Of a stretch of DNA of 19,738 nt, positions 1 through 17,500 are shown in pieces. The position numbers and the translations under genes are program-made. Below the pieces are notes generated by a model, which had not been told where the DNA came from, did no database searches, and saw nothing but the letters and a program-made list of their open reading frames with translations. The first letter of the stretch is position 1. Each line of letters starts with the position of its first letter. The DNA comes from an uncultured Lachnospiraceae bacterium (lineage in GTDB: Bacteria; Bacillota; Clostridia; Lachnospirales; Lachnospiraceae), in contig CADCQU010000070.1 in the NCBI GenBank assembly GCA_902803635.1, forward strand, positions 1 through 19,738. Reading direction: 5' to 3'.

Positions 1-4
1 CTAA

Positions 5-32
5 GGGGATTCTTCGCTTCGCTCAGAATGAC
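5..32. repeat. Short interspersed intergenic element
   Basis: The core GATTCTTCGCTTCGCTCAGA continues into ATGAC. It can fold as ATTCT (9-13) against AGAAT (25-29), with a small inner CG/CG pairing over a CTT loop. From memory, this core recurs in intergenic regions of many gut and environmental bacteria. Only one copy is seen here, so calling it a repeat rests on that knowledge and not on the window itself. It lies about 130 bases before the NRPS start. Confidence 0.4.
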
Positions 33-148
33 AAGCCTTTCGTATGGATGATGTCCATTTTTATGCGTTCAACCGTACAGGTGGAAATCTTTTCGCTCGG
101 CTGTCTGGGAAGAAAAAAACTGCATGAACGGAATGAGTATTTACGTCG

Positions 149-157
149 AAGGAGGAT
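149..157 (+). promoter_or_regulatory. Ribosome binding site of the NRPS
   Basis: AAGGAGGAT ends five bases before the ATG at 163. This fixes 163 as the original start of the NRPS. The in-frame ATG at 124 has no such site, and neither does the ATG at 197, which opens the frame used by the rest of the gene. No convincing -35/-10 pair was found in 1-148, so the promoter may lie upstream of the window. Confidence 0.7.
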
Positions 158-162
158 CTGGG

Positions 163-729
163 ATGGAGCATTGTTTGATTCAGAGGATTCTTAAGAATGC
201 GGAGGCGTTTCCGGAACGGCCGGCGGTGGTCGGGCAGGGGATGGACGACGCATTTTCCTATCGGGAACTGGTGGCGGTTTCGCGGCGGATGGCTGCTGGG
301 CTTTTCAAGGCGGGAGTTGGCCGGGGGGATTTTGTTACGATTGAGCTGCCCCGCAAGAAGGAGTATATCGCGGCGATGCTTGCGGCATGGATGGTCGGGG
401 CGGCCTTTGCCCCGCTCTCGCCGGTGTATCCCACCGAGCGCCTCGCCTATATCCGCAGGGACTGCGGCGCGAAGGTACGGCATCACGGAATTCGAGCTCA
501 TTTTCTCGGCCATTTCCATGGTTCTTGGCAAATACACGGGCTCCGAGGACGTGGTGCTCGGCATCCCGACCAACACGCGCCCGGACGGGGCAGAACAGGT
601 CATCGGCATGTTCGTCAACACCGCGCCCGTGCGCGTAAGGCCGGCGCGGGGACTGGACATTTCCGGGTATTTGACAGCTGTGAGCGAGGCGGTGCGGAGC
701 GCGACGCGTGGTTCCAGCTTGCCCTTTGA
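163..729 (+). pseudogene. NRPS 5' fragment: adenylation-domain N-terminus, cut off by an out-of-frame junction
   Basis: This is the genuine start of the NRPS gene, with a strong ribosome binding site and ATG at 163. Residues 1-~105 match the beginning of an NRPS adenylation domain: a FPERPAVV start, YREL, GVGRGDFV, then the A2-type motif MVGAAFAPLSPVYPTERL and RDCGAKV. The frame then leaves the family at about 474-480 and continues as Arg/His/Gly-rich nonsense to a stop at 727-729. The ATP-binding YTSGSTG motif and everything after it are absent, so this fragment cannot activate an amino acid. Sequence resembling the middle of a condensation domain begins at the same point in the next frame. 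The pattern fits a deletion of about 2 kb that removed the rest of A, a carrier domain and the first half of C. A chimeric assembly is the main alternative. Confidence 0.7.
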
Positions 730-3700
730 AGATGTCGTCGCGGAATTTGCCAAAGCAAGGGACGCGAGCAGGAGTCCGATCTTCGATGTTACCGTCAACT
801 ACCTGTGGGAACCGGCGGTATATGCCGCGGACGGACTTACGCTCTCCATGTACGTTCCGCTCCAGAGGATGGGCCGCGACATCGGCTTTACGATGCGGAG
901 GCAGGTGGACCGTCTGCTCTTCATGACGCAGTATTCCTCCGCGCTTTTTGAGGAGGACGTGATCCGGAACATGATCGCCCAGATTTGGGAGACGATTGGG
1001 CTTTTGGAAAAGGGGTCTGTCCGCACCGTGCGCGAGGCGCTGGCGCTTCCGAAGGCACAGGAGGAGAGGCTTGCGGCCTTTTCCAGAACGGCGGAGGCGG
1101 AGGTTCCGGTGACGCTTTTGCACCAGCTCTTTGAGAAGGCCGCCGAGGAGAACGCGGAGAGGACCGCGCTCATCGCGAAGGACGGGACGCTGACGTACCG
1201 CAAGCTCAACGAGAGCGCGAATATCGTCGCGCACAACCTCATTGCGAGGGGGATTGCCGTGGGCGATTCCGTCGCGCTTCTCCTGCCTCGGGAGAGCAGC
1301 TTCTTTCGCTGCCTCTTCGGCGTGAACAAGGCCGGCGCGGCCTTCATTCCCTGCGACCCGAAGTATCCGGTCGAGCGCATCCGGACGATTTTAGAGGACA
1401 GCGGGGCTTCGCTCCTCATCACGACGGCGGACAGACTTGGTGAGTATCCGGAAGGGAAGGCGGTGGATGTTGCGGAGCTTTTGTCCGGTGATAAGGCGGA
1501 AAACCCGAATCTTCCGATGAGTGGTGATGAACTCGCCTACATGATCTACACCTCGGGCTCGACCGGGAAGCCGAAGGGCGTGATGCTCCGGCATGCGGGC
1601 ATTTGCAACTACCTCCAGCCGCACCCTGCCAATGTCCACATGGCCTTCGTGCGGGAATTTGTCGAGACCTACCTCTCGGTCACGACGGTTTCATTTGACA
1701 TGTCCTTCAAGGAACACACGGCCGCGCTCTGCAACGGGAAGACGCTGTTGTTCGCCTCGGACGAGGCGGGGAACGACCCGCAGGAGCTGGCCCGCCTGAT
1801 GCGGGCCCACGGCGTGGATTGCCTGAACGCCACGCCCTCCCGCCTCCAGCAGTACCTCTTCTCCGGGGCTTTCTGCGAGGCGCTGAAAAACTGCAAATGC
1901 GTGATGTCCGGGGGCGAGGGCTACCCGCTGTCCCTTCGCGACCAAATCCGGGAGATTGCACCCAATGTGCGCATTTTCAATACGTATGGCCCGACGGAGA
2001 TCACGGTCTCCTGCAACGGCGTTGACTTGACAAATGCCCCCTGCGTCACGGTGGGCCGCCCGCTCCTCAATTACCATGAATACATCGTTGACAAATTCGG
2101 CGATCTTGCGCCCTATGGGGTGGAGGGTGAGCTCTATGTCGGCGGCGTGGGCGTCGCGAAGGGCTACCGGAATCTGCCGGAGAAGACGGCGGAGGCTTTT
2201 GTCGAATACAAGGGCGAGCGGATGTACCGCACCGGCGACCTCGCGAAATTTGACGGGGACGGGAACGTCATGATTCTCGGGAGGCTGGACAGCCAGGTGA
2301 AGATTCGGGGCCTTCGCATCGAGCTCGGCGAGGTCGAGAGCGTCATCCGCGAGTTCCCGGGCGTTCGGGACGTTACGGTGCAGGCCTTTACCCCGCCTGC
2401 CGGCGGAAAGGCCCTCGCGGCATACATCGTGAGCGACTCCCCGGTGGACGAGAAGGCCCTTGCGGCCTTCATCGCGAAGACCAAGCCGTCCTACATGGTG
2501 CCGGAGGCCGTGGTGCAGCTAGACAGGATTCCTTTGAACCAGAACCAGAAGGTGGATCGCCGCGCCCTTCCAACGCCCGAGGTCCGGAAGGCGGCCCCGG
2601 CAAATGCAGTCGCCCCGCGTCCGCTGACCCGCTTTGAGGAGGAGATTGCGGCGGTGGTGAAAAAGGCCGTCGGCGACGTGGCGATCGCGCCGACGGAGGA
2701 CCTTACGTCCCTCGGGCTTACGAGCGTCGGGGCCATCGGGCTTGCGACGATGCTCGCGGAGCGCTTCCAGACGGAGATTCCTGTGAACGAGCTTCTGGGG
2801 GGCCTTAGCCTTGTCGATCTTGAAAATCGCATTTTCGAGGAGTGGATGAACCGTGGCTTTATGCCCGCCGGCGAGGCAAAGAAGGCCGGCCCCGCCGTGC
2901 CCGAAACCGAAAAGCGCGATGCCTACCCGCTCTCCTTTGTCCAGCAGGCTGTCTACTACGATCTTATGAAGCGGGAAAATGCCGGCACCATCTACAACAT
3001 CCCGCACTGCCTTGCATTTGCCGAAATCGACGCGGCAAGGCTGGCAAATGCCGTGAAGGCGGCGGTCCGCGCCCATTCGTACCTGAATACACACTTCGAG
3101 ATTCGGGACGGGGCCATCGTGCAGGTCCGCGACGATGCGCGGGAGGTGGACGTACCGGTGCTGCAAATGGAGGAGCTGTCGTTTGCGGCCTACAAGGAGG
3201 CCTTCGTGCGGCCCTTTGACACCGGCGTCGGCCCGCTCTACCGCTTCGCGGTGGTCGTGGTCGACGATGGGAAGACCTACCTCTTTATGGACATCCACCA
3301 TCTGGTCTTTGACGGCTTTTCGAGAGGCGTTTTCCTCCGCGACGTCGGGCGGGCCTACCGGGGCGAGGAGCTTTTGCCGGAGGCGTACAGCTATTTTGAC
3401 TATGCGAAGGAGGAGGCCGACCGGCAGGGGACGGCGGCCTACAAGGAGGACGAGGCCTACTTTGAGGAGCTGATGCAGCGCTTCGAGGTTCCGTCGGAGG
3501 TTCCCGCGGACAAGAGCGGGATGGAGGAGAACGGGAAGCAGGCCGACAGCGTCCGCCTGGTGCCGAAGGAGCTGGCGGATGGCCTCAGCCGGAAGCTCGG
3601 CATCACGCCCGCGTCCCTCTTCCTTGCGGCCTCGTTCTACACAGTTTCCAGATTTGCAGGCACAAGGGAAGTGTATATTTCCACGATTGATACCGGCCGG

Positions 3701-6700
3701 AACCTTCCGAAGACACACAAGGCGGTGGGCATGTTCGTGCACACGCTGCCGCTGGCCATGAGCTTCGAGAAGGACCAGACCGTGCGGGAGCTGGCCGCGG
3801 CCTCCGAGAAGGCCCTGCGCGGGAGCGTCCTCCACGAGGGCTACCCCTTTGCCGAGCTGGCCGCAAAGTATGGATATACAAACCAGATTATGTACGAATG
3901 CCAGATTGGCATGCTCTCCGGGGAGGGGAGCCTGGGCGGCGTTCCCTTTGAAGATGTCCCGCTGGGGCTGGAGAAGCCGAAGTTCAAGATCAGCCTCTCG
4001 ATCGTGGAGCTGGACGGAAGCTACGGCATTTATGTCCGCTACAACGACGCCATTTACCAGAAGGAGACCATGGACGCGCTCGCCGAGGCCCTCGGCATTT
4101 GCATCGAGCACATGGCAAAGGATCCGGAGCAGTCGGTGCGGAAGCTCTCGCTCCTTGGAAAGGAGGAGGCGGAGGTCATCGCTTCCTTCGGGAAGGCGGA
4201 GACGGCCGAGCTTCCGGAGACGGTGTTCCACCGGGTCTTCGAGGCCCGCGTGCGGGAGAACCCGGACGCGACGGCCCTCATCGCCTGCGACAAGACCCTG
4301 ACCTTTGCGGAGCTGAATGGCGAGGCAAACCGCGTGGCGACGAGCCTTATGGAGATGGGCGTCGGCAAGGGCGGCAGCTGCGTGCTCCTCCTGCCGCGGC
4401 GGAGCTTCTACTTCGCGGCAATGTTCGGCGTTTTGAAGGCCGGGGCGGCCTTCATCCCCTGCGACCCGGAGTACCCGCCGGAGCGCATCCGGCACATCGT
4501 CCACGACGCGGACGCCTCCTGCATCATCACGACGGAGGAGCATTTGCCGGATTACGCCGGGGAGACGGTGGTGGATATCCAGCAGCTTCTACTTGGCGAG
4601 GACCGGGGCAATCCCGACGTTCCGCTCACCGGGGAGGACATGGCCTACATGATTTACACCTCCGGCTCCACGGGCCGGCCCAAGGGCGTGATGATGAAGC
4701 ACGTCTGCGTGGTGAACTGCGTGTATCCGCACCCGGTCAACGAGCACTACTACGTCATCAAGAACGAGGCGAAGGCGGTTCTCGGCGTGACGACGGTCTC
4801 CTTCGACATGTCGTTCCAGGAGACGGCCGGCTCGCTCCTAAACGGCAAGACGCTGGTCTTTGCGAGCGAGGAGGAGCTGAACGATCCGAGGGCTCTTACC
4901 GCGCTTTTCGAGCAGACCGGCGCCGACGTTTTCGACGCGACGCCTTCGAGATACTTGCAGTATATGGAGTACGAGCCGTTCAAGAAGGCTCTCGGCCGCT
5001 GCCGCCTCGTCATGGTCGGCGGCGAGGGCTTCCCGCAGACGCTGCTCGAGAAGCTGCAGGCGGTCCTCTCGCCCGACGCGCATATTGAAAATGCCTACGG
5101 CCCGACGGAGACGACGATGGCCTGCAACGGGGCGGACCTCATCAAGGCCCCGCGCGTGGCGGCCGGCCCGCCGCTCCTCAACTACGAGAGCTATATCGTG
5201 GACCTCGACGGGAACCCGGTTCCCAGAAGGGTCATCGGCGAGCTCCTCATCGGCGGCATCGGGGTCGGCATCGGCTACCGGAATTTGCCGGAAATGACCG
5301 AGAAACGCTTCATTATGTACGAGGGCCGGCGCGTCTACCGCTCCGGGGACTATGCCCGCTGGGACATGGACGGGAACGTGGAGGTCCTCGGCCGCATGGA
5401 CAACCAGGTCAAGCTCCGCGGACAGCGCATCGAGCTTGGCGAAATTGAGGGCCTCATGGAGGCCCAGCCGGACATCCGCCGTGCGGTGGTGGCCATCCGG
5501 AAGATCCACGGCCAGGACAACCTCTGCGCGTGGTTCACGGCCGACCGGGAGATTGACGTCTACGAGCTTCGGGAGGAGCTGAAGAAGAAGCTGACCGCCT
5601 ACATGGTGCCGGTGGCCTTCGCCCAGCTCGAAAAGATGCCGCAGACGCCGAACGGGAAGACCGACATGAAGGCCCTGCCCACGCCGAAGGCCGTGGAGCT
5701 TGGCGAGTTCGTGGCCCCGGCAAATGCCGTCGAGCAGTTCTTCTGCGACCTCTTTAAGGACATTTTGGGCATGGAGAAGGTCGGCGCGACGGACGACTTC
5801 TTCTCCTTTGGCGGGACAAGCCTCACGGCGACGACCGTCATGATCAAGGCCACGGAGGCGGGCTACAAGCTGACTTACGGGGACGTTTTCAAGTACAAGA
5901 CCCCCAGGGAGCTGGCGTCGAGATTTGTGAGGGGCGAGGAGAAGAAGGAGGAAACGACCTCCGTAACGGCGAAGACATTTGACAACTATGACTATACGGC
6001 CATTAACGCGCTTCTGGCGAAGAACACCATCGCCTCGTTCAACGGCGGGGAGCCGCGTCCGATTGGCAATATCCTGCTCACGGGCGCGACGGGCTACATG
6101 GGCGCCCACCTTTTGGCGGAGTACCTGCGGACGGAGACGGGGACGGCCTACTGCCTCGTCCGGAAGGGTCGGTACGGAACGGCCATCGAGCGGCTCCGGT
6201 ACCTTCTTTTCTACTACTTCGACCAGGAATTTGCAAATGTCGGGGGCCGGGTGGTGGCCTTTGACGGGGATGTCACGGACTATGCGTGCTTTGCGGCCCT
6301 GAAGGACCTGCCCATCGACACCGTGTTCAACTGCGCGGCAAATGTCAAGCACTTCTCGTCGGGCACGGATATTGAGGATATCAACGTGGGCGGCGCAAAG
6401 AACTGCGTGCGCTTCGCGGAGGAGACGGGCACAAGGCTGATCCACTTCTCGACGACCTCCGTCGGCGGGGCGATGCTGGTGTCCGACCCGTCGCAGCTGC
6501 GCAATCTCGACGAGCAGAGTCTGTATTTCGGACAGCTTGTGGAGAACCAGTATACGTCCTCGAAGCTGCTCTCGGAGCGCATTGCGCTGGAGGGGGTCGC
6601 GGAGCGCGGGGTGGACGCGAAGGTTATCCGCGTGGGCGCGCTGTCGGCCCGCGCCTCGGACGGTGAGTTCCAGATCAACGTCCTTAGCAACAGCGCGATG

Positions 6701-7177
6701 GGGCGGCTTCGGAGCCATGTGCTTCTCAAGTGCTTCCCCTACACGTTCATGAACCTCCCGTTCCGGATGGGTCCGATTGATACCAGCGCGAAGAGCTTCC
6801 TGCACCTTGCGCGGACGCCGAGGGAGTGCTGCCTCTTCCATGCGATTAACAACCATACCGTACCTTACATCGATATCATCCGCGTTATGCGGGAGGCCGG
6901 CATGGAGATTGCAATTGTCGAGGAAGCGATTTTCCTTCGGGCTCTTCGCGAGGCGGAGGCGGATCCGGAGAAGGCCGCCATCCTCTCCAGCATCCTGGCC
7001 TACACGGGGAGGCTCAAGGAGGCGGCGGTGCTCGTGCAGGAGACGTGCGAGTACACGAACCAGATTCTTGCGCGGTGCGGGTTCTACTGGGACGAGACGG
7101 ACATGGCGTATATCCGCCGGTTTATCGACGGCTTGAAGGGACTTGGGTTCTTTGATACGGATAATCTGTATCGGTGA
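197..7177 (+). CDS. NRPS body: C(partial)-A-PCP-C-A-PCP-reductase
   Basis: Multimodular peptide synthetase. The frame is open from an ATG at 197, but family-like sequence starts only at ~476; residues 1-93 are a shadow of the upstream A fragment. Order (residues from 197): C-domain second half 94-~290, with IGMFVNT and RDASRSP but without HHxxxDG; A1 ~305-795 (YTSGSTGKPKG at 1547-1579); PCP1 ~808-885 (LGLTS, carrier Ser at 2723-2725); C2 ~910-1330 (active site HHLVFDG at 3296-3316); A2 ~1342-1832 (YTSGSTGRPKG at 4655-4687); PCP2 ~1838-1914 (FGGTS, Ser at 5819-5821); reductase ~1953-2326 (TGATGYMG at 6080, STTS, YTSSK at 6551). Family knowledge: such terminal reductases release the peptide as an aldehyde. 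The protein is cytoplasmic and needs a phosphopantetheinyl transferase, not seen here. Without the upstream start, translation initiation is uncertain; a GTG at 1109 with GGAGG before it is one possibility. Confidence 0.88.
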   Translation: MRRRFRNGRRWSGRGWTTHFPIGNWWRFRGGWLLGFSRRELAGGILLRLSCPARRSISRRCLRHGWSGRPLPRSRRCIPPSASPISAGTAARRYGITEFELIFSAISMVLGKYTGSEDVVLGIPTNTRPDGAEQVIGMFVNTAPVRVRPARGLDISGYLTAVSEAVRSATRGSSLPFEDVVAEFAKARDASRSPIFDVTVNYLWEPAVYAADGLTLSMYVPLQRMGRDIGFTMRRQVDRLLFMTQYSSALFEEDVIRNMIAQIWETIGLLEKGSVRTVREALALPKAQEERLAAFSRTAEAEVPVTLLHQLFEKAAEENAERTALIAKDGTLTYRKLNESANIVAHNLIARGIAVGDSVALLLPRESSFFRCLFGVNKAGAAFIPCDPKYPVERIRTILEDSGASLLITTADRLGEYPEGKAVDVAELLSGDKAENPNLPMSGDELAYMIYTSGSTGKPKGVMLRHAGICNYLQPHPANVHMAFVREFVETYLSVTTVSFDMSFKEHTAALCNGKTLLFASDEAGNDPQELARLMRAHGVDCLNATPSRLQQYLFSGAFCEALKNCKCVMSGGEGYPLSLRDQIREIAPNVRIFNTYGPTEITVSCNGVDLTNAPCVTVGRPLLNYHEYIVDKFGDLAPYGVEGELYVGGVGVAKGYRNLPEKTAEAFVEYKGERMYRTGDLAKFDGDGNVMILGRLDSQVKIRGLRIELGEVESVIREFPGVRDVTVQAFTPPAGGKALAAYIVSDSPVDEKALAAFIAKTKPSYMVPEAVVQLDRIPLNQNQKVDRRALPTPEVRKAAPANAVAPRPLTRFEEEIAAVVKKAVGDVAIAPTEDLTSLGLTSVGAIGLATMLAERFQTEIPVNELLGGLSLVDLENRIFEEWMNRGFMPAGEAKKAGPAVPETEKRDAYPLSFVQQAVYYDLMKRENAGTIYNIPHCLAFAEIDAARLANAVKAAVRAHSYLNTHFEIRDGAIVQVRDDAREVDVPVLQMEELSFAAYKEAFVRPFDTGVGPLYRFAVVVVDDGKTYLFMDIHHLVFDGFSRGVFLRDVGRAYRGEELLPEAYSYFDYAKEEADRQGTAAYKEDEAYFEELMQRFEVPSEVPADKSGMEENGKQADSVRLVPKELADGLSRKLGITPASLFLAASFYTVSRFAGTREVYISTIDTGRNLPKTHKAVGMFVHTLPLAMSFEKDQTVRELAAASEKALRGSVLHEGYPFAELAAKYGYTNQIMYECQIGMLSGEGSLGGVPFEDVPLGLEKPKFKISLSIVELDGSYGIYVRYNDAIYQKETMDALAEALGICIEHMAKDPEQSVRKLSLLGKEEAEVIASFGKAETAELPETVFHRVFEARVRENPDATALIACDKTLTFAELNGEANRVATSLMEMGVGKGGSCVLLLPRRSFYFAAMFGVLKAGAAFIPCDPEYPPERIRHIVHDADASCIITTEEHLPDYAGETVVDIQQLLLGEDRGNPDVPLTGEDMAYMIYTSGSTGRPKGVMMKHVCVVNCVYPHPVNEHYYVIKNEAKAVLGVTTVSFDMSFQETAGSLLNGKTLVFASEEELNDPRALTALFEQTGADVFDATPSRYLQYMEYEPFKKALGRCRLVMVGGEGFPQTLLEKLQAVLSPDAHIENAYGPTETTMACNGADLIKAPRVAAGPPLLNYESYIVDLDGNPVPRRVIGELLIGGIGVGIGYRNLPEMTEKRFIMYEGRRVYRSGDYARWDMDGNVEVLGRMDNQVKLRGQRIELGEIEGLMEAQPDIRRAVVAIRKIHGQDNLCAWFTADREIDVYELREELKKKLTAYMVPVAFAQLEKMPQTPNGKTDMKALPTPKAVELGEFVAPANAVEQFFCDLFKDILGMEKVGATDDFFSFGGTSLTATTVMIKATEAGYKLTYGDVFKYKTPRELASRFVRGEEKKEETTSVTAKTFDNYDYTAINALLAKNTIASFNGGEPRPIGNILLTGATGYMGAHLLAEYLRTETGTAYCLVRKGRYGTAIERLRYLLFYYFDQEFANVGGRVVAFDGDVTDYACFAALKDLPIDTVFNCAANVKHFSSGTDIEDINVGGAKNCVRFAEETGTRLIHFSTTSVGGAMLVSDPSQLRNLDEQSLYFGQLVENQYTSSKLLSERIALEGVAERGVDAKVIRVGALSARASDGEFQINVLSNSAMGRLRSHVLLKCFPYTFMNLPFRMGPIDTSAKSFLHLARTPRECCLFHAINNHTVPYIDIIRVMREAGMEIAIVEEAIFLRALREAEADPEKAAILSSILAYTGRLKEAAVLVQETCEYTNQILARCGFYWDETDMAYIRRFIDGLKGLGFFDTDNLYR

Positions 7178-7194
7178 TGGAGAGGAGGCGTTCT

Positions 7195-7509
7195 ATGAAA
7201 AAGGTTCGGATCACGGTGAAGAGGATCGCGCGGTATGACGATCTCATGGAGCAGTACGAGAACCCGCTGGAGCACGCCTGCGACATGGAGCTGGGACAGG
7301 TTTTCATTTGCAACGGCTGGGAGAGGCCGGAGGGCTTTTGCCTCAGCGCGTGGGACACGGTCTCGGCATTTGTCATGACCCTTGCGTACGGCGGGGAGAA
7401 CATTTACGATGGATGGATGAAGAATCCGAAGTCCGCGATGATCTCCTGCAACGACGGCTTCCGCCCGGTGAGCTTCCTTTTGGAGACGCTGGACGAGGAG
7501 GCGGAGTGA
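7195..7509 (+). CDS. TIGR04076 family protein
   Basis: Small cytoplasmic protein of 104 residues. It starts at ATG 7195 behind GAGGAGG (7182-7188), 17 bases after the NRPS stop, so it is very likely co-transcribed with the NRPS. It begins MKKVRITVKRI and carries the conserved blocks ELGQVFICNGWERPEGFC, AW at the following helix, WMKNP and SCNDGFRPVSF. These are what I recognise as the TIGR04076 family, known from Clostridia and archaea as ~90-110 residue proteins of unknown function. The cysteines in the GFC and SCND blocks are typical of the family and could bind metal or a cofactor, but that is a guess. There is no signal peptide or membrane segment. The position suggests a role tied to the peptide product, without proof. 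Confidence 0.8.
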   Translation: MKKVRITVKRIARYDDLMEQYENPLEHACDMELGQVFICNGWERPEGFCLSAWDTVSAFVMTLAYGGENIYDGWMKNPKSAMISCNDGFRPVSFLLETLDEEAE

Positions 7510-7510
7510 G

Positions 7511-7567
7511 GCCCCTCTCCGTCACGCTTCGCGTGCCGCCTTCCCCTGAGGGGGAGGCAAGGTACGC
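7511..7567. repeat. Interspersed hairpin repeat of gut Firmicutes type
   Basis: This intergenic element contains two consecutive perfect hairpins. CACGC-TTC-GCGTG lies at 7523-7535. A 9-bp stem at 7538-7558 has the loop TGA (7547-7549) and one G-T wobble pair. From memory, a sequence family of the form CCTCTCCGTCACGCTTCGCG, then a second stem ending GGGGGAGGCAAGG, is scattered between genes in many gut Clostridia. It follows the TIGR04076 stop immediately. There is no T-run, so it is not a normal rho-independent terminator, but it could stabilise or attenuate the transcript. Confidence 0.6.
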
Positions 7568-7638
7568 GGCGGTTTTCCTCGGTTGGCGGGAGAAGCTGGA
7601 GGGGTGGGATATTGTTTTTGGATGGGGAAGGAGGGACA

Positions 7639-8397
7639 ATGAAGACGGTTTTTATCACAGGGGCGACTTCGGGCATTGGGATGGAGTTTGCCCGGAGGTA
7701 CGCGAAGGAGGGCTGTTCGCTGATCCTGACGGGGAGGCGAATGGAGCGGCTTCTTGCCATGCAGAAGAAGATCGGCGGGGAGAGGTGCCGGGTGATCGAG
7801 GCGGACCTTGCCGAGGAGGACCAGTGCCGGCGGCTCCTTAAGGACATCGAGGGCGAGGAGATTGACATTTTTATTAACAACGCGGGCTTTGGGGCGGCCG
7901 GGAGCTTCCTTGAGACGGACCTTGACAAGGAGGTCAGCATGGTCAGGGTGAACGACCTGGCCATGCACATCCTCTTTAAGGGGGTGCTCCGGAAAATGGA
8001 GGAGCAGGGGCATGGGACGATTCTCAACGTGGCCTCCTCGGCCGGCCTGCTTCCCGCGGGACCCTACATGGCGGCCTACTATGCATCGAAGGCCTACGTC
8101 GTTTCCCTCACCAAGGCCGTGGCGTGGGAGCTGAAGGAGAAGGGGAGCGGCGCCTATGTCTGCTGCCTCTGCCCGGGGCCGGTGGATACGGAATTTAACG
8201 AACATGCGGACGTGATTTTTGCGCTCAAGGGAATATCGGTAAAACGCTGCGTTTCGGAGTGCCTTGCGGGGATGAAGAAGAGGAAAACCGTGATCATCCC
8301 GACCGTCGGCTTGCAAATGCTGCTTCGCTCCCAGCGTTTCCTGCCGGAGGGAATTTTGCTCCGGATCGTGGCAAGGCAGCAAAAGAAGAAACAGTGA
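7639..8397 (+). CDS. Short-chain dehydrogenase/reductase (SDR family)
   Basis: NAD(P)(H)-dependent oxidoreductase of 252 residues, the normal length for a classical SDR. The start at 7639 is chosen because AAGGAGG ends just upstream (7629-7635) and the Rossmann strand begins at once (MKTVFITGATSGIG). Visible motifs are the cofactor loop TGATSGIG, the NNAG block, the catalytic Ser in VASSAG, YYASK with the YxxxK Tyr/Lys pair, and the PGPVDTEF segment after the sixth strand. TGRR after the second strand contains arginines, often seen with NADP(H) preference. The C-terminus is basic (ARQQKKKQ). The substrate cannot be read from the sequence. The gene may act on carbonyl compounds, including products of the upstream reductase-ended NRPS, but the 129-base gap with a hairpin repeat leaves co-transcription open. 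Confidence 0.88.
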   Translation: MKTVFITGATSGIGMEFARRYAKEGCSLILTGRRMERLLAMQKKIGGERCRVIEADLAEEDQCRRLLKDIEGEEIDIFINNAGFGAAGSFLETDLDKEVSMVRVNDLAMHILFKGVLRKMEEQGHGTILNVASSAGLLPAGPYMAAYYASKAYVVSLTKAVAWELKEKGSGAYVCCLCPGPVDTEFNEHADVIFALKGISVKRCVSECLAGMKKRKTVIIPTVGLQMLLRSQRFLPEGILLRIVARQQKKKQ

Positions 8398-9086: not shown

Positions 9087-11354
9087 ATGAAGAAAAGAAA
9101 CTGGAACATTTTGTGGGCCTTGCTTCTTTGCATTTGCCTGGTCTTTGGACAGGTGCCGGCGACGGCAGCGGCGGCAGGGGCATTTGCCGAGGAAGATGCG
9201 GAGGCCGTGACCGAGGAGGAGATGGCCTCGGCGGGACTTGTGCAGGCATTTACGGTTTATGAGGAGGCCGAGGGGGCGGAGAAGGAGGAGGCAGCAGGCT
9301 CCCTTCTCGATCAGCTGTCGGGGCTTCTTGGCGGAGAGTCCGGCGAGCTTCTCTCGAGGCTGAAGGAGCTTCTGGGGAGTTCGTCGGGAGCCGTGGAAAA
9401 GCTGAAGGAGCTTCTGGGCGGCTCTTCCCAGATTCTGGATATACTTAAAACGCTGGTGAAGGAACTGCTGAAGGATCCGTCTTCGGCCGTCGGAAAAATC
9501 CGGGACCTCATCGACATGCTCAGCGGGAACATGCCGATTTCGTACATGTATCTTGAAGTAATAAAGCCGGAACCGGGGAAAGCCTGTACGCCCAGGCAGC
9601 TTATCCCGCCTGCGGAGGAGGAGGCTAACTACACGGTGGAACGCGCGGTGTACGTGAAGGACGGTGCCGAGTCCGAAGCTGCGCGGGTCTTTGCACCGCT
9701 CGAGGAATTCCAGCTCCGCGTTACCTTCAAGGCGAAGGAAGGAAAGCATTTTGGGAGCCAGCTCTATACGAGCTATTTGGCAGATCTGGAGAGCGTTACG
9801 GTGGAGAAGCTCACCCGGGAGACCGCGACGCTCCTTTACGTCGTGAAGGCCTTGAACACCAAAGGGGTGATCGAGAAGGTCTCACTCACGTTGGAAGGAC
9901 CGCTTGGCGGACAGAACTCCTCCGATTTCCGTCCCATTTGCAGCACTTTGGAGACGGCGAACTACTACATCGGCGGCGTGGAGTGGTGCGATGCCAAAGG
10001 AGAGCCTCTGGAAGACGAAGTGTCATTTGTCACCGGAAAAACGTACTATATGATTATCTACCTGAATCCGGACGATGGGTGCTGGTTCGTCGATGGGAAG
10101 ACGGCGGCCGAGATTACTGGCGGGGAGCTGGTCGGAAAGCTTAGAATCGAGAGCGAGCAGTATGACGGCGTTCTGCAGACAAATGCCCAGGCGGTCGTTT
10201 CTGTCACGGCGGAGGAGGCTCAGGAAGGACTCATCCAGAGAATCAACCTTTCCTTCACGAAGCCGGAGGAAGGAACGGAGTTTGTGGTGAAAGGGAAGGA
10301 GCTTGCGCCACGACTCGCCCTCGAAATCCCGGAGGATTCTCCCTATGCCTTCGCCGATGCGTACAATGCCTGGTTTTGTCTGGAGCACGGCGAGCCGGTG
10401 GAAGACGGCGTCTATGAAGTGAAAAAGGGGGAATCGTTTAATTGCTACACAATTCTGAAGGCAAATGCATCGCATACCTTCTATACGCACCCGTTGATTA
10501 CCATCGAGGACGCGGATGAAGCGAAGGTGGATGCCCTTTCGGAGGATGGTACGACCATCGGCATCTTTTTCAGTTTCTACATTCCGCAGCCGGAGGAACC
10601 GGATGTCGTTGACCTTACGACCGTAGATACAATGCAGCAGCCGGGCGAGGGCGGGAGCGTTAACGTCGAGATTACCAACCTGGACGGGACACCTTCTGAG
10701 TGCGGCGGCGAAACACGGGGCGGCATTGACTTTGGATCAGGTTTTCAGGAGGGTACCAAATTTAATATGACCGCCGTCCCGGATGCGGGCTACACCTTTG
10801 CGGGCTGGTATGAGAGCGACGAGTTGAAGGTTCACTCTGGCGAGGGCGGCTGGTATTACCCGGATCGACTTCTGAGCAAGAATGCCACGTACAGCTATGT
10901 TACCAAGGCGGGCGAGACGCTCTACATCTGCGCGGTGTTCGACGGTGGTGCGGCCAAGGTGAAGACCCGCTACGTCTACCAGTGCGAGAAGAACGAGGTC
11001 TACCGCTACACGACCAATAAGGATGTCGTGAAGAAGCTTCGCGACGAAGGCTGGAGCTACAAGAAGGTCTTCCGTGTACCCGCGCAGGGCACAGAGAAGG
11101 CCTACTGGGTCTACAACAAGAGCACGAAACGTTACCGCTACACCAACAAGCTTTCCTACGCGAAGAAGATGAAGAACGCCGGAAATAAGGCGGGCGTCGC
11201 CTTCTACCAGTCGGAGAAGCGGAGCGTTCCGATCTACGAGCTTGTCAAGGGGAACACGTACTTCTACACGATGAAGAAGAGCGAGGCGAAGGCCAGGATC
11301 AAGGATGGCTGGACGTACAAGCAGGTCGCGTTTTATGGCGAACCGAAGGCATAA
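9087..11354 (+). CDS. Secreted multidomain surface protein with Ig-like units and C-terminal aromatic repeats
   Basis: 755 residues, 37 bases after the peroxidase stop, with AAGGAGG at 9072-9078; an ATG at 9082 is out of frame. Residues 1-~30 form a signal peptide (KKRNW, hydrophobic core, cleavage near ATAAAAGAF). Residues ~35-70 are Glu/Ala-rich. Residues ~72-155 form an amphipathic helical stretch with a repeated LKELLG motif. From ~160 to ~500 there are three diverged Ig-like units. Residues ~508-625 contain GYTFAGWYESDE, like InlB-type B repeats. Residues ~627-755 carry about three aromatic, lysine-rich units (VYRYTTN..GWSYKKVF, KRYRYTNKLSYAKKM, TYFYTMKKSEAK..GWTYKQVAFYG) resembling DUF5648-type repeats, plausibly binding the cell wall. 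No LPXTG or membrane anchor is seen. The role is probably extracellular binding or adhesion; the ligand is unknown. Confidence 0.85.
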   Translation: MKKRNWNILWALLLCICLVFGQVPATAAAAGAFAEEDAEAVTEEEMASAGLVQAFTVYEEAEGAEKEEAAGSLLDQLSGLLGGESGELLSRLKELLGSSSGAVEKLKELLGGSSQILDILKTLVKELLKDPSSAVGKIRDLIDMLSGNMPISYMYLEVIKPEPGKACTPRQLIPPAEEEANYTVERAVYVKDGAESEAARVFAPLEEFQLRVTFKAKEGKHFGSQLYTSYLADLESVTVEKLTRETATLLYVVKALNTKGVIEKVSLTLEGPLGGQNSSDFRPICSTLETANYYIGGVEWCDAKGEPLEDEVSFVTGKTYYMIIYLNPDDGCWFVDGKTAAEITGGELVGKLRIESEQYDGVLQTNAQAVVSVTAEEAQEGLIQRINLSFTKPEEGTEFVVKGKELAPRLALEIPEDSPYAFADAYNAWFCLEHGEPVEDGVYEVKKGESFNCYTILKANASHTFYTHPLITIEDADEAKVDALSEDGTTIGIFFSFYIPQPEEPDVVDLTTVDTMQQPGEGGSVNVEITNLDGTPSECGGETRGGIDFGSGFQEGTKFNMTAVPDAGYTFAGWYESDELKVHSGEGGWYYPDRLLSKNATYSYVTKAGETLYICAVFDGGAAKVKTRYVYQCEKNEVYRYTTNKDVVKKLRDEGWSYKKVFRVPAQGTEKAYWVYNKSTKRYRYTNKLSYAKKMKNAGNKAGVAFYQSEKRSVPIYELVKGNTYFYTMKKSEAKARIKDGWTYKQVAFYGEPKA

Positions 11355-11539: not shown

Positions 11540-14500
11540 ATGAAAAAGAAAAGAGCAAGACGGATTTTGTCGCTTCTTCTGGTCGCGGCCATGCTGCTGG
11601 GCTCCGTGCAGGTGCCGGCATTTGCCGCGCAGACGGAGGCGAAGGAATCGGCAAATGCCGGGGAAGCGTCTGTAGGAGAGGCGGCTTCGGCAAATGACAG
11701 AGAAGCGAAAGCTGAGCAGGCGGCTTCGACGGATGCCGGAGAAGCGCCTTTGGAGCAGCTGGCTTCGGAGGATGCCGATTCAGCAAATGCACAAGAGCTG
11801 AACGCTGCCGCGGAATCAGACGGGAAGCCTGCCGGGGCGGATGGGAAAACTGCCTCAGCGGATGAGGCTGTTTCCGAGGAAGGCGAACCGAAGGAAGGCG
11901 AATCGACCGCCGGCGTCAACCTCTTGGAGGGCGAGACGAAGCTGGAGGCGATGACTCTGGGCGCGGACCTTACGCTCACAGGGAATTATGTCCTTGATGG
12001 CGGGTGTTTGAATCTCGACGGCCATACCCTGACCATCAACGGGAACCTTCTGCAAAGCGACGGGGACATTCTGGTCAATGGCGGCACCCTCGTGGTGACG
12101 GGCGACTATCGGATCCAGAACCGGAAGAGCGACGGCGACTACGAGTGGTGCGGCGGCGCCCTCGTGATGACAAAGGCCACGGACAACGTGCGCGTGGATG
12201 GCGAATTCTATGTGAGCGGCGACACGGGTTACTGGAACGCTGCCGGCCAATGGCAGAAGGAAATGCTGACGGCGGGCACGCTGACCATCGGCCGGGGTCT
12301 GCACCAGCTTTATCGAAACGACGGTTTCCGCGCGATGGGCGAGCATAAGACCATTTTTGCGGGAGCCGCAGCCAACGGGGAAACATCGAAAAAATGTTCT
12401 GTTTCCTTCACGAGCCCGGACTCTTGCCTTGGCATGATTGAGATGGCGGAGGACGTGGAGATAGACTGGACGGGCTATTTCAATGTCGAAACGCTTGGAA
12501 ACGACGTGGCCGTGACGGCCCCCGTCGGCGTGGGCGAGGGAATCACAATTTACAGCAACAGTGCCCGTATGAACTTTAATGGACACAACCTTACCGTGAA
12601 CGGAAACGTGCGGAACCTTGTCGGGGAACTTTACGTCGGCGGGGCGCATTTGGCAGGGTCATCGTCGAGCGACGACCTTCCGCCCTCGGAGGGCGACAAT
12701 GGCCTTGCGGGCGAGGCCTTCGACCCGGAAAAGGCCGGGAGCCTGGCCATCTGCGGGGATTTCCTGCAGCAGGACGGCGACCTCGTCGCGGACGGCGGCA
12801 AGGTACGCGTGGACGGCGACTGGCGTATCCAGCACCGGAAGGACGACGGAACCTACGAGTGGTGCAACGCCGCCCTCGTGATGACAAATGAATTCGACGA
12901 CGTGCGCGTGGGCGGCGACTTTTATATCAGCGGCGACACGGGCTACTGGAACCTTGCCGGTGTGTGGCAGAAGGAAATGCTGACGGCGGGCACGCTGACG
13001 ATTGGCCGGAGCCTGCACCAGCTCTATCGGAACGACGGCTTCCGCGCGCAGGGTGAGCATAAGACCATTTTTGCGGGAGCCGCAGCGGAAGGTGGAACCT
13101 CAAAAATCTGCTCCGTCTCCTTCGCAAGCCCGGACTCCTGCCTTGGCATGATCGAGATGGCGGAGGACGTGGAGATCGACTGGACGGGCTATTTCAATGT
13201 CGAAACGCTTGGAAACGACGTGGCCGTGACGGCCCCCGTCGGCGAGGGTGAGGGAATCACCATTTACAGCGAAAAAGCCCGGATGAGCTTCAACACGCAC
13301 AGGCTTACCGTGAACGGAAACGTGCGGAACCTTGTCGGGGAACTCTACGTCGGCGGAGAGCACATTGGCCTTGCGGCCTATGAGGACGGGAAGGCCGGGA
13401 GCCTTGAAATCCACGGTGACTTCCTGCAGCAGGACGGCGACCTTGTCGCGGACGGAGGCAGGGTGTACGTGACCGGCGACTGGCGCATTCAGCACCGGAC
13501 GGGTGACGGAACCTACGAGTGGTGCGGCGCCGCCCTCGTGATGACAAATGCATACGACGACGTGCGCGTGGATGGGGACTTCTATGTGAGCGGCGACACG
13601 GGCTACTGGAACCTTGCCGGGGCGTGGCAGAAGGAAATGCTGACGGCGGGCACGCTGACGATTGGCCGGGGTCTGCACCAGCTCTATCGAAACGACGGCT
13701 TCCGCGCACAGGGAGAGCATAAGACCATTTTCGCGGGGGCTGCAAGGGGCGAGAATCCGGCGGGCGAGGCGCAGCTTGCGGGAGCGGCCTCGAAAGCCTG
13801 CACCGTCTCCTTTGCGAGCCCGGACTCCTGCCTGGGCGTCATTGCGATGGGCGACGACGTGGACATTTCCTGGACGGGGTATTTCAATGCCAAGACGCTT
13901 GGGAACTACGTGACCATCACGACACCCACCGGGGCGGGCGAGGGCATCACGATGTACAGCGAAAGGGCCCGCATGGACTTTAACGGCAACAGGCTCACCA
14001 TCAACGGGAACGTGCGAAACCTTGTCGGCGAGTTTTATGTCGGCGGAGCCCACGACGGGTTGGAGGACCTGGAGGTTGAGCCGATCGGCAGCCTCGTGGT
14101 CAACGGAGACCTCCTCCAGCAGGATGGCGACCTAATCGTGGATGCCGGGCACGTGACCGTGACCGGCGACTGGCGCATCCAGCATCGGAAGGACGACGGA
14201 ACCTACGAGTGGTGCGGCGCCGCCCTCGTGATGACAAATGAATTCGACGATGTTCGTGTCGGCGGAGACTTCTATGTGAGCGGCGACACGGGCTATTGGA
14301 ACCTTGACAATGTCTGGCAGAAGGAAATGCTCACGGCGGGAACGCTTACGCTCGCGGGCAGCTTCTACCAGCTGTACCGAAACGACGGCTTTCGGGCAAC
14401 GGGTGCCCACAAAACCGTCCTTGCCGGAGAGGGCTCAGCGGCCGTGCAGTTTGGAAGTTCGGACAGCTACTTTGCCACGCTGGAGCTTGCAAATGCGCCG

Positions 14501-17500
14501 GAAAACTACATTTTCAGCCGCGTCCCGTGCTGGACGAAGGTCCTATACAACGGGGAGGAGCTGACGGAGGCTGATTTCCCGTTCACCGGCATTGTTAATA
14601 CGGCGGAGGGGACGATAACCCTCACCAAATGGCCTGCGGATTCGGCAAATATTGAGATTCCATCGGAGATTCAGGGCTTTACGGTCACGGGGCTTGGCGC
14701 GGAAATCTTTAAGGACTGCGCCAATCTTGAGACGGTCACGCTGCCCGGGTCGCTCGTCGAGATCAAGGAGCGGGCATTTGCCGGCTGCGCATCTCTTGCT
14801 GAGATTAACTTCCCGGCATCGCTCACCACGATTGGCGGCGAGGCCTTCCGGAACTGTACCGCTCTTGCGTCGGCGGACTTCCCGGCATCGCTCACCACGA
14901 TTGGCGGCGAGGCCTTCCGGAACTGTACCGCTCTTGCGTCGGCGGACTTCCCGGCATCGCTCGCCACCCTCGGCAGCAACGCCTTCCGGGACTGCAAGCA
15001 GCTTGCCGCCGCGGCCTTTGCGGTGGGCGGCGTTCTGGAGAGTATCGGCAGCTCGGCCTTCGAGGGCTGCGAGAGCCTTCTGGAAATCCGGGTGCCGGAC
15101 GGCACGACACGGATCGATGCCTACGCCTTCTACGGCTGCAAGAGCCTGAAGAAGGCCGTCGTTCCCGGGACCGTGAAGGAGATGGGGAACCAGGTCTTCC
15201 GGAACACGCCCCTTGCCTCCGCCGGCCCCATCGGCTCCGACGCGGACTACGAGTTCGGCTGGACGCTGGCCATCCCCGGCTATGCCTTTGACTTCATCGA
15301 GACGCTGGAGAGGGCCGAGCTTCCGGAGACCCTCACAAAGATTGGGAAATACGCCTTCTCGGAGTGCCATGCGCTTCGGGAGGTGGTCCTTCCGGCGGGG
15401 CTTACGGAAATCGGCGAGACGGCCTTCTATATGTGCCGGAGCCTAACAAATATCGAGGTCCCGGCGGGCGTGACCGTTCTTGCACGTGACACCTTCCACG
15501 AGTGCCGTGCCCTTGAAGATGTCGTCCTCCATGATGGCCTCACGGAAATCGGGCGCTCCTGCTTCGAGGACTGCGTCTCCCTCCCCTACCTGGAGATTCC
15601 GGAGGGGGTGACGACGATCCGCGCGTATGCCTTCTGGAACTGCGAAGCCCTGGAGCAGCTCTTCCTCCCGGAAAGCGCGGTGACGCTGGAAGAGAATCTG
15701 GTCAAAAAGACCGACAACATCCTGCTGTACGTATTTCCGGGGAGCGCTGCGGAGCAGTATGCGATTGCAAATGACCTTCCTTACACAAACCCGGTCGCTT
15801 TGGGCCGTATGCTTACGGCAAATGTCCTTGACGAGGAGGGCAAGGAGCTTACGGGCAGCTACACGGTTTCCTGGTATGACGCGGCAAATGACACCCTCCT
15901 TGGGACGGGCAAGAAGCTTCGGAACGTCGCGGAGGGGACAAATGTCCTTTGCAAGGTCGTTCTCGGTGAGAGTTATGGACGCCTGTACTCCCAGCCGGAT
16001 TATGCGACGATTACCGTGGGCAATACGGATGCCAAGGTGGACATCCCACTTTCACCCTTTGCGAAGGCCTCGGTCCGCGGAACCGTGAAGGATGCCGACG
16101 GCAATGCCATTTCCGGTGCCGCGGTGCTCCTCCGCCAGACCTTCAACGGCATGTACGAGGACACACGGGAGGTACGGACCGACGAAAACGGCGGGTTTGC
16201 ATTTGCCGAAATCAGCATGACAAAGACCACGGTCACGGTGTCGGCGGACGGATATTATGACCAGACGGCGACCGTCAGCGAGGCGCAGTTTGCCGGCGAA
16301 AAGGCCATCGAGGCCGTCCTCGAAAAAATTCCGGAGGACAAGGTGAACCTCGAAATTCTCGTCAGGGAGGCCTACGCGCCCGACGAGGAGGAGGAGATCG
16401 GCGAGCTGCGGAGTACCGCCGGGCTTGTATTTACAGTATATAACGAAACGAAAGGCAAGCAGTTAAAGGAAAATGACGATTTCCGTATCCAGTATCCCTT
16501 CCTGACGCTCCGCGGCGACGCGGCGGCTGCGGGCGATACGCTCCGGCTCTCGCTTGCGGAGGGCGGAACGCTCACGGCGGCCGATACGACCGTCACGCTT
16601 GATGGCAATCGCTGCGGGAACGTCTCCTGGACGCTGGTCCGGAACGGAAGGGTCCGCTTTGCGGGCATCCAGCCGGCCGGGAAAAAGGGAGTCGCCGTCA
16701 TGCTCTTCGAGAATGCGGAAGGCAGCCTCGTGGAGTCCGGGGACGCGACCACCTACTACGAGAGCGGCTCGCTGCCGCAGGGATCGTACATGGCCGTCTT
16801 CCTGGAGAAATCCAGCCTGCTTCGGAGCGTCGAGAGTATCGCCATGCTCGGCATGATGGGCCTTTCCCCGACGACGGACTACACGCTGTGTACGGTGCAA
16901 GTGTCAAATGGCTCCGTCACCGTGGTGGACGGCATAAAGGTGCCGGCATTTGACGAGAGCAAGCTCTATTACACGGTCGCGGATCAAACACGCGTCTGGG
17001 CAAATTACAAGGCGGCCTCTACCGGCCAGTACGTGACCGTCCGCGCGATGTACGAGATTGACGAAAAATACGCGAGCGAGGGGGAGACGCTTCTTCTGGA
17101 GATTCCAGAGGGCCTGACATTTGTCGAGAGGAGCCTCACGGTCGGCGGGAAGTCGGCGGCCTGCACGGTGGCTGAGAACGAGGACGGAACAGCGTCCGTG
17201 ACAATCCCGGTGAACGCCCGGAAGAGCACGGTCCGCTTCTATGTCCTGCCGAATCATGCGGGGACGAAGACGCTGCACGGATACCTCTATTTCCGGCAGG
17301 GAGGCGCGGGTGCGACGCAGCCCATCGGCTCCGCCTCAATCGAGGTTGCCAACGCCGCACTCCATGTGCCGGCCGAGACCAGCCAGAAGCGGATTACCGT
17401 TACGGGCAAGGCCATCGCGGGCTGTGACATTACGGTCTACGACAACGGGACGAAGGTCGGGACGACCACCTCGAACAGGAACGGTTCCTGGAGCCTTTCC

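Follow-up and report, generated by a model that had tools for sequence, protein, structure and literature searches.

The NRPS gene that opens this contig belongs to a known kind of gut synthetase and has probably been inactivated by an intragenic deletion. The window, meaning the whole stretch of DNA analysed (19,738 b), is the entire contig C70 of source assembly G000, which comprises 411 contigs and is 88.65% complete. In place of three adenylation (A) domains, three carrier (PCP) domains, two condensation (C) domains and a reductase in one frame, the gene as it stands holds two A domains, two PCPs, one and a half C domains and the reductase in one frame plus, in a second frame, the initial quarter of an A domain. 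We propose that a trimodular gene of a gut Clostridia species, with the order A-PCP-C-A-PCP-C-A-PCP-reductase, would have lost ~2045 bp in one deletion that begins at loading A-domain residue 105 and ends halfway through the first C domain (C1). The features on which this reading draws are the following, in window coordinates.

1..94, no strand assigned: dispersed repeat at the contig start, with many copies in G000 (from matching window 1–170 to G000)
149..155, + strand: ribosome-binding site AAGGAGG, 7 nt before ATG163
163..477, + strand: first 105 residues of the loading A domain (left arm); PF00501 positions 3–96 of 384
464..478, + strand: junction zone; 467–477 (GCGCGAAGGTA) fits both arms, which leaves the breakpoint ambiguous
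467..1072, + strand: second half of C1 (right arm); PF00668 positions 243–455 (of 456), HHxxxDG half absent
478..729, + strand: out-of-frame end of the ORF that starts at 163, with its stop at 727–729
1130..2551, + strand: adenylation domain A2 with its C-terminal subdomain; PF00501 at 1130–2167 and PF13193 at P0002 residues 619–692
after A2, + strand: first PCP, one of two PP-binding stretches in the Pfam profile search
2915..4180, + strand: complete condensation domain C2 with HHLVFDG; PF00668 profile and sequence
4238..5278, + strand: adenylation domain A3; PF00501 profile
5741..5920, + strand: second PCP; P0002 residues 1756–1815
6077..7177, + strand: terminal NAD-binding reductase and end of the NRPS frame; PF07993 to ~6787 (P0002 residues 1868–2104), stop 7177

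The left arm is a normal loading A-domain start in frame 1 behind an excellent ribosome-binding site, as the first-pass annotation of this DNA had described it: the PF00501 match runs to ~477, and the frame-1 stop is where ribosomes setting out from 163 had been said to halt. Compared with 68 relatives, its identity to their loading A domain is 43–63%, against 29–40% for those later A domains that were matched. The arm appears orthologous to the family's loading A domain and lies at the gene start, over its first 105 residues only. Because its identity to loading A domains exceeds that to later ones, and because the repeat attached to it (1–94) is abundant in the source assembly, it is most likely this species' own loading module. 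Matching of window 1–170 to G000 returned at least 45 matches at E ≤ 0.1, self included (a lower bound, as 40 of 250 candidates were scored), and the other 44 all lie inside positions 1–94 of the query. Of 41 further genomes from the genus, five gave matches to the repeat, the longest covering no more than 35 of its 94 bases; at full length it was not found in any of these 41, for some of which only 21 candidates were scored. Since the left arm starts in a repeat that is abundant in G000 and not found full length in the 41 others, a single organism is the most likely source of both arms. Several other contigs of G000 (C238, C61 and C219) also begin at the repeat, and a search of a plasmid collection gave no match.

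The right arm is a normal C domain in the other frame from 476, an earlier statement that the profile search bears out, with PF00668 matched from position 243 onward and the frame open to 7177. The missing HHxxxDG is a motif that we take to belong to the absent half of C1. Beyond this half domain, the frame continues in the order A-PCP-C-A-PCP-reductase. The reductase is matched by PF07993 with E 1.4e-27 over P0002 residues 1868–2104 and carries the reductase motifs, with GATGYMG and YTSSK read in its sequence; these are presumably its nucleotide-binding and catalytic motifs. The right-arm frame is also open 5′ of the joint, back to ATG197, where it runs through what is merely out-of-frame A-domain DNA. 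The frame change at the joint had thus been correctly noticed at first pass, whereas this upstream extension had been overlooked. Further downstream, within A2, similarity to relatives drops from ~0.7 to 0.2–0.35 at window 2300–2700, where an extra C-A-PCP module follows; this stretch resembles a boundary left by module insertion or recombination.

The size of the absent segment was estimated from 80 relatives in bacterial genomes, by their titles largely rumen or other gut Clostridia assemblies, in each of which we located the homologue of A-piece residue 105 and that of the first C-piece residue. Both anchors were found in 68 of the 80, the 12 left out of the distances being nine on short contigs and three without a loading A match (L010, L065 and L082). 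The anchors lie 2043 nt apart in 41 of the 68 and 2031–2052 nt apart, in frame, in 66; the exceptions are L058 (1978 nt, frameshifted) and L075 (1992 nt). In 65 of 68 no stop interrupts the interval. The corresponding distance in the window is −2 nt, so ~2045 bp are absent, and with them the ~2.04 kb of in-frame A-PCP-C that lies between the anchors: the remainder of loading A, one PCP and half of C1. As ~2045 bp is 2 modulo 3, its absence changes the frame at the joint. This comparison with homologues, which the first-pass annotation had called for, agrees with its figure of about 2 kb.

It also makes a trimodular ancestor probable, as had been suggested, with two proteins serving as models: P0009 (3027 aa) has three A domains, two C domains, three PCPs and a reductase, and P0011 (3001 aa) has three A domains, two C domains and a reductase, with two PCPs detected. 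Other relatives are bimodular, A-PCP-C-A-PCP-reductase (L011 by Pfam, L034 and L060 by sequence reading), or start with a C domain (P0004 and P0013). Full architecture was determined by Pfam for L011 alone of the 68, and for L010 among those without a loading A match.

The bases at the joint suit both domains. Read as A domain, 467–477 encodes A-K-V, residues found in 67, 55 and 13 of 68 relatives, respectively; read as C domain, it encodes A-R-R and the start of Y, found in 68, 57, 35 and 38 of 68. In the right-arm frame, the end of the left arm gives A-A-R-R before Y, the place in the family being before Y/F. Because ARR occurs out of frame at just 18 of 4460 positions of this gene, a chance match at the joint is unlikely, and the double fit is what a deletion between short repeats would be expected to leave. 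Some 8–11 bases would be common to both arms, a length estimated from family conservation, as the parental sequence was not found. Spontaneous deletions between short repeats typically leave shared stretches of this size, and library chimeras and PCR template switching show microhomology just as typically. Repeat collapse was considered and rejected: window 1–1100 contains short repeats only, and window 100–900 matches G000 at one place only. The initial judgement that no simple repeat collapse is involved therefore stands, no long repeat being present at the joint within the 1100 bases examined.

We searched for the missing segment in the G000 bin and for the joint elsewhere. The PF00668 profile found no other partial C domain in the bin; PF00501 matched 12 places, none recognised as the rest of the left-arm A domain; and the missing segment as taken from a relative had seven matches in the bin, at 27–33% identity only. 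The other NRPS contig found in G000, C287 (locus L092), was rejected as the site of the missing piece, its match to the relative's segment being only 31–32%. On that contig, 5674 bases long, the second NRPS occupies an open frame of 1891 residues and has two A domains plus a single C domain. A short contig left out of the bin could hold the 2-kb piece. The joint itself recurs in P0123, a 148-aa protein from a 685-base contig, which spans it and is identical to the 188-residue ORF at 142 of 143 aligned residues. Past the joint 37 of 38 residues agree, the single difference falling at the codon at nt 574, and the last five residues of P0123 diverge from the window. Among 21 matches to the 188-residue ORF, P0123 is the sole near-identical protein (the next is at 61%), and it may come from the same sample as the window. 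The joint is present in both of the near-identical sequences that cover this point (the window and P0123). Three protein searches, limited to proteins of 0.55–1.75 times the query length, listed 120 of 6878, 21 of 21 and 120 of 1183 matches, the two that listed 120 having scored only candidates sharing most words; a near-identical intact sequence was not among the matches listed.

In the deletion that we favour, recombination or replication slippage between the ~8–11 matching bases would have removed the segment, and living cells would carry the result. Ribosomes starting at 163 would make a 188-residue, non-functional peptide, and the remaining 6.7-kb frame would have no good start, leaving the assembly line inactive. 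The in-frame starts in 476–1200 are in keeping with this, and with the first-pass view that the 6.7-kb frame is cut off from its start: a good ribosome-binding site at normal spacing is lacking from all of them, and candidates such as GTG1109 (GGAGG 11 nt upstream), GTG959 and GTG905 are weak. As the remaining frame has no convincing start in this interval, the gene is most simply seen as inactivated. A promoter and terminator scan of 1–1200 returned nothing, where just 0.5 and 1.3, respectively, were expected by chance. The window's own database protein, P0003, begins at 518; P0003 stands for a cluster of four member sequences, of which the window's own was the one examined.

Against a deletion stands the downstream frame, which is intact and without clear decay, so that a deletion could only have happened recently. 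Of 48 conserved C1 columns the right arm breaks one, a count equalled or exceeded in 30 of 80 sequences (window included); the left arm breaks 2 of 18, equalled or exceeded in 6 of 69 (window included). With 6 of 167 A2-core columns broken, the window ranks highest of 78 sequences (the next breaks 5), an excess as compatible with a divergent orthologue as with early decay. A larger excess, 25 of 218 in a longer stretch, was discarded as a sign of decay, as 19 of the 25 lie after ~nt 2300, where the module type changes. As a control, stops were counted on either side of C1 in the relatives: in the 2043 nt preceding it, 3 of 68 have them (L022, L043 and L058), and in the 2043 nt that follow it, 1 of 66 (L069; two contigs were too short), with no clear difference.

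Damage to loading modules was also seen in relatives. That of L058 (85–2581) is frameshifted, with ~65 nt lost, and single TAG codons interrupt those of L022 (2334–2336) and L043 (9059–9061). Two trimodular relatives, P0017 (2696 aa) and P0061 (2664 aa), each show an in-frame loss of ~310–340 residues that by position corresponds to the second half of an A domain and its PCP, in module 1 of P0017 and module 2 of P0061. The breakpoints of the two look roughly alike, and the losses are either real deletions or assembly collapse.

Whether the joint exists in the cell at all is the question on which the main alternative turns. A chimeric read or insert, or an assembler error, may have skipped the 2045 bp in a cell that has a normal trimodular enzyme, an explanation that we hold to be possible if rather unlikely. 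It gains from an assembly in 411 contigs, from a joint less than 480 bases from a contig end that lies inside a repeat, and from the intact remainder of the gene; PCR template switching also leaves short shared sequence of the kind seen at the joint, and P0123, whose tail diverges, could derive from the same reads. Yet the 8–14 shared bases are far below the usual assembly k-mer, so that a de Bruijn assembler would presumably need joint-crossing reads. Two contigs carry the joint, moreover, and the three length-limited protein searches listed no near-identical intact sequence. The first-pass annotation had offered a strain deletion or a chimeric assembly as the cause: the organism's own repeat on the left arm and the same joint in the P0123 contig favour the former, and the latter becomes the less favoured of the two.

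Granting a real deletion, the shortened gene might still work, an internal start yielding a bimodular A-PCP-C-A-PCP-reductase behind half a C domain and a shorter peptide aldehyde. The 6.7-kb frame is indeed open and conserved, bimodular enzymes of this order exist among the relatives (L011, L034 and L060), and weak starts such as GTG1109, GTG959 and GTG905 are available. We nevertheless consider this very unlikely: the strong ribosome-binding site is the one serving 163, with no good one at normal spacing before any in-frame start in 476–1200, and a C domain truncated at its N terminus would probably fold badly. The empty promoter scan of 1–1200 points the same way and says little, given the 0.5 sites expected by chance. 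That such a deletion has been fixed in a gut lineage, turning a trimodular into a bimodular synthetase with a shorter product through an internal start, is if anything more improbable still. Least probable to our minds is a left arm from another NRPS gene or species, joined here by recombination or misassembly. Its GC3 of 0.724 sits at the low edge of the range of downstream 105-codon stretches (0.714–0.943), and its orthology comes without a near-identical intact relative to prove it; however, the relatives matched by the right arm are also those whose loading A domain the left arm matches, and the repeat flanking the left arm is G000's own. We thus retain the intragenic deletion as the preferred reading. 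If it is real, a single deletion can be enough for a gut population to lose a synthetase of this kind, whose product would be dispensable at least locally. As database protein P0003 starts at 518, a survey of gut BGCs would probably class this contig as a two-module NRPS and miss its broken three-module origin.

The remainder of the contig holds open frames of other kinds. ORFs at 7174–7506 and 7308–7838, together with two antisense ORFs, matched no Pfam family. Window 9087–11354 encodes a 755-aa secreted-type protein with DUF5648 (PF18885) and an InlB-like B-repeat, and 11540–19738 encodes a large secreted-type protein, cut by the contig end, with BspA-type leucine-rich repeats, a carboxypeptidase-regulatory-like domain and, by eye, several similar N-terminal repeats of ~200 residues each.

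Reductase-terminated gut NRPSs are an enzyme type already known, and a PDB search gave general NRPS matches only. In 8,160 rumen genomes, a survey found 5,346 NRPS clusters (PMC8241843). Among the relatives, the bimodular L011, L034 and L060 share with the window a homologous loading A domain, C1 and A2 core, whereas an extra C-A-PCP is present in the window, whose A2 diverges from theirs at ~nt 2300. P0009 and P0011 have the architecture and length expected of the window gene if intact (~3020 aa); unlike it, they keep their own loading module complete, and they are 50% and 45% identical to the window, respectively, in the left arm. P0017 has likewise lost loading-module sequence (A plus PCP, ~308 aa net), but in frame and with other breakpoints than the window. 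Related gut Clostridia NRPSs make dipeptide aldehydes, as described for ruminopeptin and the rup genes of Ruminococcus bromii (PMC12327764). Like that synthetase, set beside it here by description only, the window gene is a gut Clostridia NRPS, with a terminal NAD-dependent reductase (PF07993), and because of this reductase aldehyde release would be expected of an enzyme of its type. It differs from the rup system, as far as that is known by description, in being of trimodular type and in having lost its loading module.
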